Below are positions 13,119-21,909 of a DNA stretch of 30,095 nucleotides, piece after piece. Source of the DNA: a virus; IMG/VR virus record IMGVR_UViG_3300042914_000948, positions 1 through 30,095 of that record. The stretch is one strand, 5' to 3'. A program made the position numbers and the translations under genes. Position 1 is the stretch's first letter, and every line of letters starts with the position of its first letter. The notes under the pieces are model-generated. The model did no database searches. It was not told the origin of the DNA and worked only from the letters and a program-made list of their open reading frames with translations.

Positions 13119-14408
13119 TTAAGCGAATGCGTACTTTCCAAAATTCTTTTTTAATTCGTAATATGCCCTCATCATTATTGCGTCAGCAAAGTCGGGAGAT
13201 ATACCGTGTCTCTTTTTCAAATCTTCTTTATTGGTTACTCTCAACTTTCCATCGCTATCAATTTTCTCCCTTCTAATCATTTCGAGTTCCTTCACAATGG
13301 TGTCTTTATGCGTTGACTCAAATGTGATTGCGTTACTACTTATCAATTCTCCTAACTTAAAATAACAATCGGATTTTAGATTCATATAATTGTCACGCAC
13401 CGCTTTTGATCCATTAAGAAATCCTTTGCAATGAAGATAATCTTTGGCACCTCCTCCAATGCCATCCTCATCCACCAGTACGTTAGATAATCTTACGGAG
13501 TGATTTTTAATTAGGTCATTGATGGTGTCCACAACCTCATTGATAGGTTTGTGTTTTAACACTACAAACTTTTCTGCGTGTAAATTATTCCATACAACAA
13601 TCACTGTCCTATCGTCACCCATTCGTGCGATGTCCGCAGTTATAAATTTGTCACCCAATGTAGTGGATGGGCGAAAGCATCTTAACAAATCATCATATTC
13701 ATAAAGGCGGTCTTTTGTCTCATCATAATCCCAATCACCTTCAAGTAATCTTTTGCGGTCAATGTCGGGAAGCATCTGTAATGATTCGATATAGACTGGT
13801 GATATGTGTGGGTTGTCAGTTGGCAACGCCTGAATAAATCGCCTATCCTTTCGTATTGAGTTATTCCTTTGCGCATCAAAGAACTCCCGATATAACCAAC
13901 CTTTGTGCGGGTTGCAGGTCAATAGTCCTTTTGGGTTGTCATTGATTAGCTTGTAACGTACACGACTATTCAAGATGTTAACGCACTTCTCAGATACCTC
14001 ACTGGCTTCATCAACAAAATAATCAGTAATCTCAAGCGAACCAAAGCGACCAAAGTCTGGGTCTGATGGCATATCCGCCAAATCCATCAAGATTATTTGT
14101 GAGCCATTGTACCAATTGATTACGTGGTCTTGCCCATTATAGGTGAAATGTTTTCCTGCAATGAGATTGTACTTGGTGCAAAGCTCAAAGAATGTGGCAA
14201 GTGTGGATAGTCGCAACTTTTTAAGTTCAGCACGACCTATTAAACCACGTGTGCCAGGATACTTTAACCGCCTTTTTATTTGCCAATCGCAACCTAAAAA
14301 AGATTTTCCACTTCCTGCTGAACCGCCATATAGTAATTGCCTACATTCGTTATCAATCGCAAGATAGGATAGTGCCTCTTTTTGCTTATCGTGAAATTCA
14401 ATTTTCAT
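13119..14408 (-). CDS. terL: Terminase large subunit (TerL)
   Basis: This 429-aa protein is the DNA-packaging motor. The ATPase part has Walker A GGSAGSGKS (28-36), Walker B YFVDEA (130-135) and a coupling motif TCNP (164-167). The nuclease part has Asp259 (ITADIARMG), Asp313/Asp315 (VDEDGIGGG) and Asp409 (SPDFADAI), the three acidic positions of the RNase H-like fold. The length is normal. Unusually, it lies on the minus strand within the early operon, while the structural genes and the small-subunit candidate (22780) are on the plus strand. It abuts the methyltransferase gene with no gap. Confidence 0.95.
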   Translation of the reverse strand: MKIEFHDKQKEALSYLAIDNECRQLLYGGSAGSGKSFLGCDWQIKRRLKYPGTRGLIGRAELKKLRLSTLATFFELCTKYNLIAGKHFTYNGQDHVINWYNGSQIILMDLADMPSDPDFGRFGSLEITDYFVDEASEVSEKCVNILNSRVRYKLINDNPKGLLTCNPHKGWLYREFFDAQRNNSIRKDRRFIQALPTDNPHISPVYIESLQMLPDIDRKRLLEGDWDYDETKDRLYEYDDLLRCFRPSTTLGDKFITADIARMGDDRTVIVVWNNLHAEKFVVLKHKPINEVVDTINDLIKNHSVRLSNVLVDEDGIGGGAKDYLHCKGFLNGSKAVRDNYMNLKSDCYFKLGELISSNAITFESTHKDTIVKELEMIRREKIDSDGKLRVTNKEDLKKRHGISPDFADAIMMRAYYELKKNFGKYAFA

Positions 14409-15982: not shown

Positions 15983-16292
15983 TGTGATTGTTTTTAGTTG
16001 TTACAAATTTAGTTAAGTCCCAAGCTGAGCGCACCGCAGCTTTCCAGTCTTTCATCTTATTCTTGCCGTACTTCCATCCAGTGTTGGTGTAGTGACTGAT
16101 AAAGACATCAGCGAAATTAAGTGCATCTTCTGAGTTGGCATTGGGCATACGTTCAAGAAAGTAGTCAGCGACTTCTTCAAGTGATGGCGCAATGAAAGAT
16201 GACCTTATCTGTTTGCTGTTGAACTGGCTCTCCAAGTTCGCTATTCTTTCTTCGAGTAATAGTACCCTTGAGCTTAAAGTATTGATGTCCAT
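15927..16292 (-). CDS. DnaD-type replication protein fragment-like, 121 aa
   Basis: The N-terminus is a short coiled coil (LSSRVLLLEERIANLESQF). It is followed by FIAPSLEEVADYF and the conserved TNTGWKYGKNKMKDWKAAVRSAW, which closely resembles the C-terminal signature of phage replication proteins (NGWkvGknkMkdWkaAvr). Such proteins load or tether replicative helicase. The full-length versions usually have a longer N-terminal winged-helix region, absent here. That part may be supplied by the DnaA-like protein encoded just upstream, whose gene overlaps this one by 116 nt. Confidence 0.7.
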   Translation of the reverse strand: MDINTLSSRVLLLEERIANLESQFNSKQIRSSFIAPSLEEVADYFLERMPNANSEDALNFADVFISHYTNTGWKYGKNKMKDWKAAVRSAWDLTKFVTTKNNHNDTIGRIQRTSLQQWLDA

Positions 16293-16725
16293 CTGTTAAT
16301 CGTTGTTTAGTTGTTTTGCAATTATAACCATTATTTTCAAATGCCAAGATAAAATCATTTACTAAGTATTTGAATTGAGGATCCGTTGTGTACAGATTGC
16401 AGCATTTTTTTACTGAGTGCAAAACCGTTGCGTGATCTATCCCAAACGAATCACCAATACATTTAAGCGTTTTATGATTTTCAGCAAAGTACGTGAATGC
16501 AATACAGATAGCACGTGCATCAACAACAGCTCTTTTACGTGTGCGACTTTTAATCTGACTCTCGTTAACGTCCATTAAATCCATACACGTTTGATAAAGT
16601 ATCTCATCAACCTTCTTCATACTTTCGATATGCTCAAGTTCCTGCGATGTCGTCACAATCAATTCACGTAGGTCAGCAAGTTGTCTTTCAATTTCAGTTA
16701 TTGCGTTTAGTATTGTTGCGTTCAT
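16177..16725 (-). CDS. DnaA domain IV-like DNA-binding protein (replication initiator candidate)
   Basis: Residues 62-121 resemble DnaA domain IV: RKRAVVDARAICIAFTYF, then KCIGDSFGIDHATVLHSVK (DHATVLHS at 97-104 corresponds to the DnaA-box recognition signature DHxTVxxA). There is no AAA+ ATPase, so this is a stand-alone DNA binder preceded by a coiled coil (about 8-45). A plausible role is origin binding and recruitment of host replication proteins, in line with the lack of a phage polymerase or helicase. Its 3' end overlaps the DnaD-like gene by 116 nt, and its start overlaps the upstream stop by 4 nt. Confidence 0.78.
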   Translation of the reverse strand: MNATILNAITEIERQLADLRELIVTTSQELEHIESMKKVDEILYQTCMDLMDVNESQIKSRTRKRAVVDARAICIAFTYFAENHKTLKCIGDSFGIDHATVLHSVKKCCNLYTTDPQFKYLVNDFILAFENNGYNCKTTKQRLTDGHQYFKLKGTITRRKNSELGEPVQQQTDKVIFHCAIT

Positions 16726-19546: not shown

Positions 19547-19942
19547 ATGAAAGGTAAAATCATACAGAGTATGAAGCCAAGAGCGAAGAAACCATTGGCT
19601 GGTGAAGCTGGAGTGCAGTTTGCGATAGTCCAATACATCAAAGTAATGTATCCAAATGCCTTGTATTGCGCATCCGCAGGGGGAATGTTCACCTCAATGA
19701 AGCAGGCTATTAAAATGAAGATGACTGGATATGTGAAAGGATTTCCTGATCTTCAAATATGCGAACCAAATGAAAAGTATCATGGCTTGTTTATTGAAGT
19801 AAAGACTGAGAAAGGCGTAGTGAGCAAAGAACAAAAGGAATGGATCAAACAGTTGAACAAACGTGGGTATTATGCTACTTATGTAAAAGGCACTGAAGAG
19901 GCCATAAAAGTAATTGATGCATATTTCAAAGGTACAATATGA
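19547..19942 (+). CDS. VRR-NUC domain nuclease
   Basis: This 131-aa protein matches the VRR-NUC family, a compact PD-(D/E)XK-type nuclease. Features are GGMFTS and KMTGYVKGFPDLQI (catalytic Asp in GFPD), then FIEVKTEKGVVSKEQKEWI (E-x-K), and a final RGYYATYVKGTEEAIKVI. Such stand-alone proteins in phages act on branched or structured DNA, for example Holliday-like intermediates. The start could be 19547 or the second ATG at 19571, given the adjacent promoter. The stop overlaps the sigma-like gene by 26 nt. Confidence 0.86.
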   Translation: MKGKIIQSMKPRAKKPLAGEAGVQFAIVQYIKVMYPNALYCASAGGMFTSMKQAIKMKMTGYVKGFPDLQICEPNEKYHGLFIEVKTEKGVVSKEQKEWIKQLNKRGYYATYVKGTEEAIKVIDAYFKGTI

Positions 19943-20399
19943 CCAACATAGGCGCTTAGCCATCAATCTTTGTAGCGGCAACGTGTACGAAGCTGATGAC
20001 CTGCTGCACGATACGTTATTGTGTATTTTTGAAAATGGCAATGAGATACGCAACAGCGAACACTATATAAACCACGCATTAAAGATAGCGCACTGGTCTA
20101 ATCGTTCCCATTATCACAACACAATCAGAAAGTTCAACCAGATGAGTGATGAGCCTACTGAGTCACAATTGCGTGACTATGAGAGTGTGACCGTGTGGTT
20201 AGGGGATAGGATAACCAATGAGCAACTTGATATCTTGATTTCCCGCCTACCATTTTTTGAAAGGGAGGTATTCTATTTGTACGCATTAAATGACTTCAGT
20301 TACAATGACCTATCCATTGATACTGGCATACCCAAGAAAGTGCTTTATAACGCAGTTAAATACGCAAAAAACGAAATAAAAAAAGCAATAGTGATATGA
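19917..20399 (+). CDS. Sigma-factor-like protein (sigma-70 family, ECF-like)
   Basis: This 160-aa protein resembles a small sigma factor. The N-terminal part has YEADDLLHDTLLCIFENG, like the region 2 helix of ECF sigmas. The C-terminal part has SRLPFFEREVFYLYALNDFS, YNDLSIDTGIPKKVLYN and VKYAKNEIKKAI, like the region 4 helix-turn-helix that contacts the -35/-33 element. Region 2.4 is weakly conserved. In context it heads the rightward transcript and could redirect host RNA polymerase to phage promoters such as the TATATTTGTAG elements at 6295 and 21110 (inference). An in-frame TTG at 19914 precedes the ATG. Confidence 0.72.
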   Translation: MHISKVQYDQHRRLAINLCSGNVYEADDLLHDTLLCIFENGNEIRNSEHYINHALKIAHWSNRSHYHNTIRKFNQMSDEPTESQLRDYESVTVWLGDRITNEQLDILISRLPFFEREVFYLYALNDFSYNDLSIDTGIPKKVLYNAVKYAKNEIKKAIVI

Positions 20400-20887
20400 A
20401 TAAGATAATTGAGATGGCCAATATGCGGATGGCTATTTGTCGTGAGTGTCCCGTCTACAATTCAACTACCCGAACTTGTGGCACACCACTCAATAAATTA
20501 AATCCATTTGCACAACCTGTCACATTGGATGGGGTGACCTTTAAACCGTGTGGGTGTTTCTTAGATCTCAAAACTAAAATGACCTTTCAGGATTGTCCAG
20601 GTGGACGTTGGCCCATTGTGGTGGATTCTGAAAAGAAGAAACAAGCAAAAGAGTTGGTGCAATCTGTTAAGGCAACCAATATGCTAACCGATCCGCAGCG
20701 CAGGTTGTTAGCCGAATTCGATGAGCTAATGAAAGGTAGTAAAGGCAAAGTGAGCAGTTGCGTTCCTTGCGTGAATAAGATGATTGACGACCTTCACAAC
20801 CAACTAAAAACTGAGGAGGTGCTACTTACAACAGAAGAAACCCCACAACCAAAAAAACGTGGAAGAAAATCAAAATCAAAGTTATGA
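20396..20887 (+). CDS. Cys-rich zinc-binding-like phage protein
   Basis: This 163-aa protein begins RMAICRECPVYNSTTRTCG and continues with KPCGCFLDLKTKMTFQDCPG, eight Cys in two clusters that suggest two zinc sites. A helical middle carries SCVPCVNKM. The end is a basic tail (PKKRGRKSKSKL) with an RGR core like an AT-hook, suggesting DNA binding. This arrangement is common in Bacteroidota phages, where the role is unknown. The start overlaps the sigma-like gene by 4 nt (ATGA), so the two are probably translated together. Confidence 0.7.
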   Translation: MNKIIEMANMRMAICRECPVYNSTTRTCGTPLNKLNPFAQPVTLDGVTFKPCGCFLDLKTKMTFQDCPGGRWPIVVDSEKKKQAKELVQSVKATNMLTDPQRRLLAEFDELMKGSKGKVSSCVPCVNKMIDDLHNQLKTEEVLLTTEETPQPKKRGRKSKSKL

Positions 20888-21081
20888 TGAGCCTGCTTCA
20901 TTTTTGTTTTATGTTCTATTTACTGATAGGATTATCACTTATTGGACTGATGGCCGTGATGATCCTACGGCAAACCCTACGTTTTTCTCTTGAGAATGTA
21001 TTGGGTATGCTATTCACCGCATTTTGTTGGCCAGTTGTGTTGGCAATGACAATTGTGGAATTGTTCAAAAGTAATGAGTAA
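20884..21081 (+). CDS. Small two-helix membrane protein, 65 aa
   Basis: Two hydrophobic segments are visible (about 5-28, LLHFCFMFYLLIGLSLIGLM in outline; about 40-58, GMLFTAFCWPVVLAMTIVEL), with a short positively charged loop (RQTLRF) between. The start overlaps the preceding gene by 4 nt. No family is recognised. Possible roles are membrane modification, superinfection exclusion or an additional holin-like function; nothing in the sequence decides among them. Confidence 0.6.
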   Translation: MMSLLHFCFMFYLLIGLSLIGLMAVMILRQTLRFSLENVLGMLFTAFCWPVVLAMTIVELFKSNE

Positions 21082-21109: not shown

Positions 21110-21117
21110 TATATTTG
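21110..21117 (+). promoter_or_regulatory. -7 promoter element TATATTTG before the control region
   Basis: TATATTTG fits the Bacteroidota -7 consensus and extends to TATATTTGTAG, identical over 11 bases to the element at 6295. A clear -33 TTG at the right distance is missing (TTAACA at 21082-21087 is too far). Transcription would start around 21121-21125, at the base of the RNA structures that follow. Confidence 0.55.
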
Positions 21118-21120
21118 TAG

Positions 21121-21195
21121 TGTTCATGTGTTATAGGTATTCCCCCTTTCATTTTAACCATGAACAGTTATAATGATTGGGGGAGTTTTTTTTTA
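21121..21195 (+). ncRNA. Candidate 75-nt structured RNA ending in an intrinsic terminator
   Basis: Two stems interleave. TGTTCATG (21121-21128) pairs perfectly with CATGAACA (21159-21166). ATTCCCCC (21139-21146) pairs with GGGGGAGT (21179-21186), followed by nine T (21186-21194). The order of the four arms means they form either an H-type pseudoknot or mutually exclusive structures. With the promoter element ending three bases before, the unit reads as a short independent transcript or an attenuator leader for the downstream genes. The structure is seen in the sequence; expression is inference. Confidence 0.55.
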
Positions 21196-21245: not shown

Positions 21246-21337
21246 AGTCAGGTGGCGGAATGGTAGACGCTATAACGAATAAGAGAGCAAGGCTACACGT
21301 TGATCCTTGCGTACAGGTTCGAATCCTGTCCTGGCTG
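21246..21337 (+). tRNA. tRNA-like gene (class II, Leu/Ser-like) lacking an anticodon stem
   Basis: The acceptor stem pairs 7 of 7 (AGTCAGG with CCTGGCT), followed by TG and a Leu/Ser-type D arm (GCGGAATGGTAGACGC). The T arm is perfect (ACAGG-TTCGAAT-CCTGT). A six-pair stem GCAAGG/CCTTGC (21287-21292 with 21305-21310) with a 12-base loop corresponds to an enlarged variable arm. The 16-17 bases in the anticodon position (21271-21287) cannot form a stem, and no anticodon can be assigned. Discriminator is G and CCA is not encoded. It is either a decayed tRNA or a specialised tRNA mimic. Confidence 0.65.
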
Positions 21338-21465
21338 CGAAGAATGAATACATATAAAGAATTCTCCATTGCCAATGGGAGATGCAAACGGCAAACTTGC
21401 GATACATCAACGCTTGGTTCAGGTAAATTCGCTATTCGCGAAATTGTTTGTTTTTATTGGGGGGA
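21338..21465. other. Non-coding spacer with one hairpin
   Basis: No credible gene is seen. A hairpin TCTCCATT (21363-21370) / AATGGGAGA (21374-21382) with one bulge and a short palindrome TTCGCGAA within 21430-21445 are the only structures. A run of six G (21459-21464) ends just before the pyrimidine tract. Confidence 0.5.
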
Positions 21466-21523
21466 CTTTTTCTTTTCTTTCTTTTTCTTTTTTACCTTTT
21501 TTTCTTTTTCTTTCTTTTCTTTT
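21466..21523 (+). repeat. Oligopyrimidine mirror repeat (H-DNA type)
   Basis: The plus strand is C/T only except for one A at 21494. Around the centre (A-CC, 21494-21496) the T-run lengths mirror each other. Outward on the left they are T6, T5, T3, T4, T5, and on the right T7, T5, T3, T4, T4, each separated by a single C. Mirror symmetry of a homopyrimidine tract is the classical requirement for an intramolecular triplex. It is not an inverted repeat and cannot form a hairpin. It lies about 30 bases upstream of the next gene. Confidence 0.85.
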
Positions 21524-21552
21524 GAGTTATATTTACTATTATTATTTATTAT

Positions 21553-21909
21553 ATGATAATACTTGCTGCTCAAATTGAATCTATAAAGTCTAGAAAAGAT
21601 AGGACTACTGCCATTGTGATTGGTACCAATGAACTTTCACCTAATCAAGCGGGGCAAATATTCTCTCTTCAAAATTCGTTTGTCTATTGCGCTCTAAAAG
21701 AGGAAGAATTCGCTACTAATGAAAGGGACATCTTGAATGATCTTAAAGCTGACTTTGAGATAGAGAAGAAGAGCAATGGCCAAAGGTTACGCAATGTCCT
21801 TTACAAGTTATATGAGCAGGACAAAGAGGGATTCTTGACCTTTACTAAGTATTATGACCATAAGATGGAGCAATTGATTAACCACTTCAAAACAAAATTG
21901 GAACTGTGA
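21553..21909 (+). CDS. Conserved phage protein, 118 aa
   Basis: I recognise the pattern from Bacteroidota phages: LAAQIESIKSRKD, then NELSPNQAGQIFSLQNSFVY, and a C-terminal GQRLRNVLYKLYEQDKEGFL with FTKYYDHKMEQLINHFK. The family has no known function; the helical C-terminus with the QRLRxVLYxxxEQ signature is conserved. The ATG at 21553 is supported because LAAQIES is where the family begins. The upstream leader contains the mirror-repeat tract. The next gene starts with GTG inside its stop codon region (GTGA overlap). Confidence 0.7.
   Translation: MIILAAQIESIKSRKDRTTAIVIGTNELSPNQAGQIFSLQNSFVYCALKEEEFATNERDILNDLKADFEIEKKSNGQRLRNVLYKLYEQDKEGFLTFTKYYDHKMEQLINHFKTKLEL

Follow-up and report, generated by a model that had tools for sequence, protein, structure and literature searches.

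A 58-nt oligopyrimidine tract at 21466-21523 of a 30-kb IMG/VR virus record (IMGVR_UViG_3300042914_000948, analysed over its full 30,095 nt and hereafter called the window) is, on comparative grounds, the conserved 3' tail of an unannotated and previously undescribed small noncoding RNA gene in uncultivated Bacteroidota viruses. The two arms of the tract mirror each other and change in step among relatives, and the mirror symmetry, or triplex potential, itself looks to be under selection. We propose, with about even confidence, that the tract serves as the 3' module of the phage RNA gene and that selection keeps its mirror arms because both would have to read one purine strand, giving a pyrimidine-purine-pyrimidine triplex with the tract's own complementary DNA strand.

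The mirror tract and its RNA gene

The tract reads CTTTTTCTTTTCTTTCTTTTTCTTTTTT-ACC-TTTTTTTCTTTTTCTTTCTTTTCTTTT. Counted outward, its T runs are 6, 5, 3, 4 and 5 nt long on the left and 7, 5, 3, 4 and 4 nt long on the right, exactly the lengths given by an earlier sequence-only reading, which had described them as mirrored around a central A-CC. In the window, both arms consist of T and C only, the single A sits in the 3-nt loop and all 26 of the 26 arm pairs are identical. The same reading had considered such order and spacing unlikely by chance, and the randomizations bear this out: the ungapped mirror score is 26, whereas 100 dinucleotide shuffles of the whole window averaged 9.6 and never exceeded 14. 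When the tract alone was dinucleotide-shuffled 2,000 times, the scores averaged 13.7, peaked at 24 and never reached 26. If the right-hand runs are rearranged, just 4 of the 120 possible orders mirror the left arm equally well. The tract is the strongest mirror repeat of the window, the runner-up scoring 10, and it has the sequence properties of an H-DNA-forming mirror repeat, being oligopyrimidine-oligopurine and mirror-symmetric around a short loop, with a symmetry that is kept despite sequence change.

The tract had been placed in a noncoding control region; instead, it ends a conserved noncoding RNA gene (Table 1). The element runs from an H-type pseudoknot (PK1) through ACTT, hairpin P2, TTGG with CAG/CGA after it, hairpin P3, GTTTGTTTTTC and a G-run to the left arm, the loop and the right arm. 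All 40 distinct sequences compared (100%) keep P2 paired, each of its 3 pairs has changed on both sides, and ACTT and TTGG are invariant across members. PK1, with near-constant geometry and unrelated stem sequences, was found in 25 of 27 representatives of <80% identity, with a mean score of 23.5 versus 14.1 (sd 5.9) in shuffles; L257 and L259, the two types found on chromosomes, are a poor fit. The three tested helices jointly gave a covariation score of 0.510, compared with 0.189±0.017 when shuffled and <=0.20 when slid. The element thus shows the covarying secondary structure of a structured noncoding RNA (P2 covariation and PK1), and its signs of expression are confined to promoter-like TAnnTTTG boxes. 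Because the minimum free energy of the window RNA was no better than that of shuffles (z -0.39) in a fold program blind to pseudoknots, the proposal of an RNA gene is based on covariation and not on energy. The pyrimidine tract is predicted to be unpaired in the RNA alone.

Table 1. Features of the RNA region and the mirror tract in the window
Feature	Position	Strand	Evidence
-7 box TATATTTG, Bacteroidota-type (TAnnTTTG), upstream of the RNA region	21110..21117	+	sequence; same box and place in relatives
5' pseudoknot unit PK0: GTTCATG/CATGAAC interleaved with CCCCCTTTCATT/AATGATTGGGGG, then a T run	21122..21183	+	sequence, relatives
Inserted tRNA-like gene, 3' of PK0 and 5' of the element	21246..21337	+	Rfam tRNA 35.2 bits, E=1.5e-5
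H-type pseudoknot PK1: stem 1 21363-21367/21378-21382, stem 2 21369-21373/21390-21394	21363..21394	+	representatives
Conserved core: ACTT, hairpin P2 (GCG/CGC, 21399-21401/21411-21413), TTGGTTCAGG	21395..21424	+	covariation
Variable hairpin P3 (TTCGC/GCGAA), lacking in marine members	21428..21442	+	comparison of members
Conserved GTTTGTTTTT and G-run (GGGGGG, 21459-21464)	21446..21464	+	comparison of members
Left pyrimidine arm	21466..21493	+	sequence, mirror search
Arm-joining loop ACC	21494..21496	+	sequence
Right pyrimidine arm, mirroring the left	21497..21523	+	triad fit, arm co-evolution

In marine members, the TAnnTTTG box, which we take to be the Bacteroidota -7 promoter consensus, lies immediately 5' of PK1, so that the element resembles a gene of about 100 nt plus a tail. 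As read from their sequence, the marine members have no GC-rich hairpin before the tract, and in this they depart from an intrinsic terminator. Judging from the promoter boxes and from the related copies on chromosomes, the virus of the window is probably a Bacteroidota phage. Apart from the inserted tRNA, Rfam covariance models gave no match at the gathering score in the window or in the seven other sequences searched (L122, L123, L251, L166, L177, L257 and L174), and the RNA core had no DNA match among phage isolates or plasmids. Whole-element matches in Staphylococcus and Arcanobacterium phages reflect low complexity only. A coding origin of the tract was set aside, the two ORFs that cross it (21260-21556 and 21369-21578) being taken as mechanical only. 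No description of the element was found in the part of the literature covered by our searches, which did yield papers on mirror repeats and H-loops (PMC9171763, PMC6356060, PMC4666352).

Symmetry and sequence change among relatives

Searches with the flanking proteins yielded over 100 related loci, with a near-identical tract in the same place in many and none in others, and about 150 distinct members were recovered in total from IMG/VR and two marine Bacteroidetes genomes. To avoid circularity, IMG/VR was also searched with P2 patterns that do not touch the tract. The 115 distinct sequences of this tract-independent sample comprise 111 members with the mirror tract, 3 chance matches and 1 homologue with another tail (L288), so that, with the chance matches set aside, mirror symmetry of the pyrimidine tract is seen in 111 of the 112 true members. 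In L288, near 12507, the core homologue is followed by a non-mirror tail that apparently contains a Watson-Crick inverted repeat instead. Among 13 GTDB matches to the left-arm pattern, only 4 are real members, two in each of the two marine genomes (L259 and L262 in CACMUP010000001.1; L257 and L261 in CACMHY010000001.1 and CACMHY010000010.1); the others appear to be other sequence that lacks the element. The element was found at E<=0.001 under strict filters in 0 of about 790 other genomes of the same order and phylum. The chromosomal copies are close to small genes common to both marine genomes, with no obvious prophage seen, and in one genome they lie 5 kb apart and point outward. A weak chromosomal relative of the RNA core (L273:1501-1600, minus strand; E=0.003 to 0.03) has no tract and lies upstream of an ORF starting MESVIIFKIDKQDKAELLEICKRNRISLSGYI.

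The canonical left arm is present in 72 members; in the others, both arms are altered in step, and the pattern looked for, conserved symmetry with changed sequence, was thus found. L278 has an additional TTTC on either side, L280 has T4 on both sides of AGTA, L317 has C-T8 and T8-C around ATTA, and L286 has T5C T3G T4C T3C T3C T6, then GTCC, then its mirror. The outward runs of L324 are 6, 4, 6, 3 and 6 on the left versus 7, 5, 6, 3 and 5 on the right, and L281 is a further example. In L161 and L182, the partner arm lies across the G-run with the mirror kept (TTTCTTTCTTTTCTTTTT-GGGGGC-TTTTTCTTTTCTTTCTTTTT).

Over 39 arm types, 941 arm pairs were counted, of which 95.1% are identical; L275, L276 and L283, whose arms could not be parsed automatically, were omitted from the pair counts. 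Non-T faces non-T 161 times against 29.6 expected across the same types. The summed mirror score was 815 with the arms' own partners and 468±30 with permuted partners (maximum 580 in 5,000 permutations), and shuffling the order of the T runs lowered the mean score from 20.9 to 14.5±0.4. The arm types share descent, and these counts therefore include related sequences and are not all independent events, although the distinct patterns are many. The sequence-only reading had considered the symmetry to be functional and fit for a triplex; the persistence of symmetry under sequence change supports this core claim, and the reading as a whole is partly supported. The outer arm sequence is conserved beyond what symmetry alone demands, and a sequence-specific ligand may therefore also act on it.

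The slot and its genomic context

The tract lies between genes at 20884-21081 and 21553-21909, and the interval between homologues of these two flanking genes was treated as a slot, of which 134 distinct examples were collected. The present element (type A) was scored in 92 slots, type B in 26 and type C in 13. Two slots scored A+C were counted as A, their C match being only 71 nt long and just upstream of the next gene, and one slot with no automatic assignment (L309) holds a variant A element; all 134 slots carry one of the three. B is about 330 nt long (L008, L098) and C about 400 nt (L053, L082), and neither has a pyrimidine tract. Both are apparently structured noncoding elements. B weakly matches the Betaproteobacteria-1 RNA (Rfam RF02932) in L098 only (E=0.004, below the gathering score). 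Relatives without a tract would have counted against a function for the symmetry, and they do exist, in about 39 of the 134 slots; but there the whole RNA gene has been swapped for another structured element, which indicates cassette exchange rather than decay. The shared slot suggests that the functions of A, B and C may be interchangeable, and as B and C have no tract, the tract is not needed for the slot's role in those phages.

A 5' pseudoknot unit, PK0, is common to freshwater phages of types A, B and C, and its versions in these relatives are altered yet still complementary. It has its own TAnnTTTG box and a T run after it, and may possibly be a separate small RNA or terminator. The nearby gene that had been called tRNA-like does match the Rfam tRNA model, although ARAGORN made no tRNA call at its position; its acceptor, D and T arms are normal and its anticodon arm is abnormal. 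In several tRNA-like versions (also L117, L152, L005, L116 and L119), the anticodon arm is replaced by a stem of 5-6 bp that closes a loop of 12 nt. The tRNA-like gene precedes element A or B, and most type-A relatives are without it.

The rightward operon beyond the tract had been thought to lead to a terminase candidate, but the large terminase subunit is encoded at 13119-14408 on the minus strand (phrog_2, E=1.2e-33). A role of the tract in replication or packaging, also proposed from the sequence, finds no backing, as DnaA boxes are not enriched, GC skew has no extremum and the operon is not terminase-bound. The record further encodes a protein at 19914-20399 (plus strand), upstream of the RNA slot, that is weakly similar to sigma-70 region 4 (PF08281, under the cut-off).

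Proposed triplex partner and competing readings

With T·AT, C·GC, G·GC and G·TA taken as acceptable triads, 97.1% of arm positions fit in the better isomer, and in the window tract all 26 of the 26 positions form standard triads with either arm as the third strand. The tolerated exceptions to arm identity, C/G and A/G, are compatible with triplex triads. Against the triplex reading, G/C and C/G are found together within single tracts of the L290/L297 clade, which leaves one non-standard triad in either isomer; in addition, C+·GC triads prefer acid pH and parallel G·GC is poorly isosteric beside T·AT (PMC4807104). Within the phage record, the tract has no exact complement besides its own opposite strand, and no purine partner tract was found elsewhere in 16 near-complete phage records or, allowing <=3 mismatches, in the members' own loci except for 3 weak matches. 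Any purine partner has to change along with the arms, and since none was found elsewhere, the tract's own complementary strand remains and is most plausibly the triplex partner.

In the mechanism that we envisage, RNA polymerase would first make the folded RNA (pseudoknot, hairpin and G-run) before transcribing the tract. In the wake of the polymerase, negative supercoiling could let the pyrimidine DNA strand fold back as H-DNA; alternatively, the nascent U/C-rich RNA could clamp the purine template strand. By either route, the freed purine template strand would be able to pair with RNA in an H-loop-like state, and the outcome would be a stopped polymerase, a defined RNA 3' end and an RNA held on the phage DNA. 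We infer triplex formation, a DNA or RNA third strand, and a trapping or termination role in this scheme. That a new phage RNA family uses a selected triplex, that locking of the transcript to its own template by an RNA-DNA triplex serves as a non-hairpin end or tether, and that mirror co-variation is a new comparative signature, is a possibility that we put forward tentatively.

The composition of the arm pairs bears on two simpler readings. An antiparallel pyrimidine hairpin in the RNA, held by U-U pairs and C-G clips with no purine strand, might be suggested by the 28 of 46 departures from identity that are C/G (16) or G/C (12), both Watson-Crick, with C/T and T/C together giving 5; but Watson-Crick pairs make up just 3.7% of arm pairs, so that the arms are not an ordinary hairpin, C facing C is kept 118 times, and A/T, one mutation away from the 768 T/T pairs, is nearly absent (4). 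We regard such a hairpin as highly improbable. It is also very unlikely that the tract is an ordinary U-rich sRNA tail, acting in pausing, Rho entry or binding of an Hfq-like protein, with symmetry as a by-product of low complexity. An unstructured U/C-rich stretch does end the sRNA gene, yet a protein reading it in one polarity would select direct repeats or composition rather than mirror symmetry, the arms co-evolve far above permuted partners, and C/T exchanges, the neutral change to be expected, are rare.

The same mirror co-evolution would also arise from a clamp acting in trans, in which the pyrimidine tail of the free RNA captures a purine-rich single strand or duplex of host or phage as an RNA-containing triple helix. 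This is compatible with arms that are unpaired in the RNA fold, and the L292 group has a short Watson-Crick hairpin (GTG/CAC) at the tip, which would pre-organise the clamp. The lineage-specific arm patterns, however, require a co-varying partner, and neither the 16 phage records nor, beyond the 3 weak matches, the members' own loci offer one; the RNA also has no internal A-rich tract, and we consider the clamp unlikely. A replication origin or R-loop primer resembling ColE1 RNA II, in which the G-run starts a persistent RNA-DNA hybrid and a triplex locks priming, would agree with the order of structured RNA, G cluster and weak-hybrid tract, and the phage does encode a protein with a DnaA C-terminal DNA-binding domain (16177-16725, minus strand; PF08299, E=4e-12). 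Against this, a few members (L313, L324, L291 and L335) keep the mirror arms without the G-run, DnaA boxes occur at 0.042 per kb near the element versus 0.071 per kb elsewhere, GC skew has no extremum at the tract, and unrelated elements substitute for A in about 29% of slots. With the G-run dispensable and origin signals absent, the tract differs from a ColE1-type primer, and we judge this reading quite unlikely. The preferred reading, a triplex with the tract's own complementary strand, can also be set beside several known systems.

MALAT1 and ENE RNA triple helices have two U-rich stretches with an interrupting C that face one purine strand, and their A-rich tract is carried or received. 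The phage arms are likewise U-rich with interrupting C and would face a purine strand, whereas an A-rich tract was found neither in the phage RNA nor elsewhere in its phage. Eukaryotic H-DNA mirror repeats (PMC9171763) resemble the tract in several ways: the pyrimidine strand is mirror-symmetric, the arms span about 20-28 nt around a loop of 3-6 nt, and an intramolecular Y·R:Y triplex that leaves a purine strand orphaned could form. In contrast to these mostly simple repeats, the phage mirror is non-repetitive, co-evolving and fixed at the end of an RNA gene. Bacterial ITxF motifs (PMC4666352) are also conserved triplex-capable motifs of prokaryotic genomes, but in these a single strand supplies all of the Y, R and Y segments and folds by itself, and the best-studied one is G/C-rich. 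The phage strand has no purine segment, so that the complementary DNA strand, or else some other strand, has to join. H-loops at GAA repeats (PMC6356060, citing Neil et al. 2018) similarly combine a transcriptional RNA-DNA hybrid with a triplex on a mirror R:Y tract; there the repeat is disease-linked and the transcript is purine in the usual model, whereas in the phage the transcript would be pyrimidine and the sequence is evolutionarily maintained. GOLLD and ROOL (PMC12286853) are likewise structured phage noncoding RNAs near tRNA genes with functions not known, but they are far larger (659 to over 800 nt), and the phage element has no Rfam match.

It has long been asked whether H-DNA and RNA-DNA triplexes are selected as working parts or are merely tolerated hazards. 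The paired arm changes across many lineages are the triplex counterpart of compensatory base-pair change, and the element, with its length of about 160 nt, offers a compact natural system that lends itself to testing, together with a comparative signature that can be searched for elsewhere. The slot itself, uncovered here in uncultivated phages, is one in which three different structured elements replace each other.

The loop varies among members as well, with GTCC, ACTC, GGTTAC, ACCC, AAAC and AGC among the forms seen. Complementarity between the loop and the end of the G-run is absent in several types; in several others, the G-run end (21459-21466) is complementary to the arm loop, as GGAC..GTCC, AGCT..AGCT or GGG..CCC.
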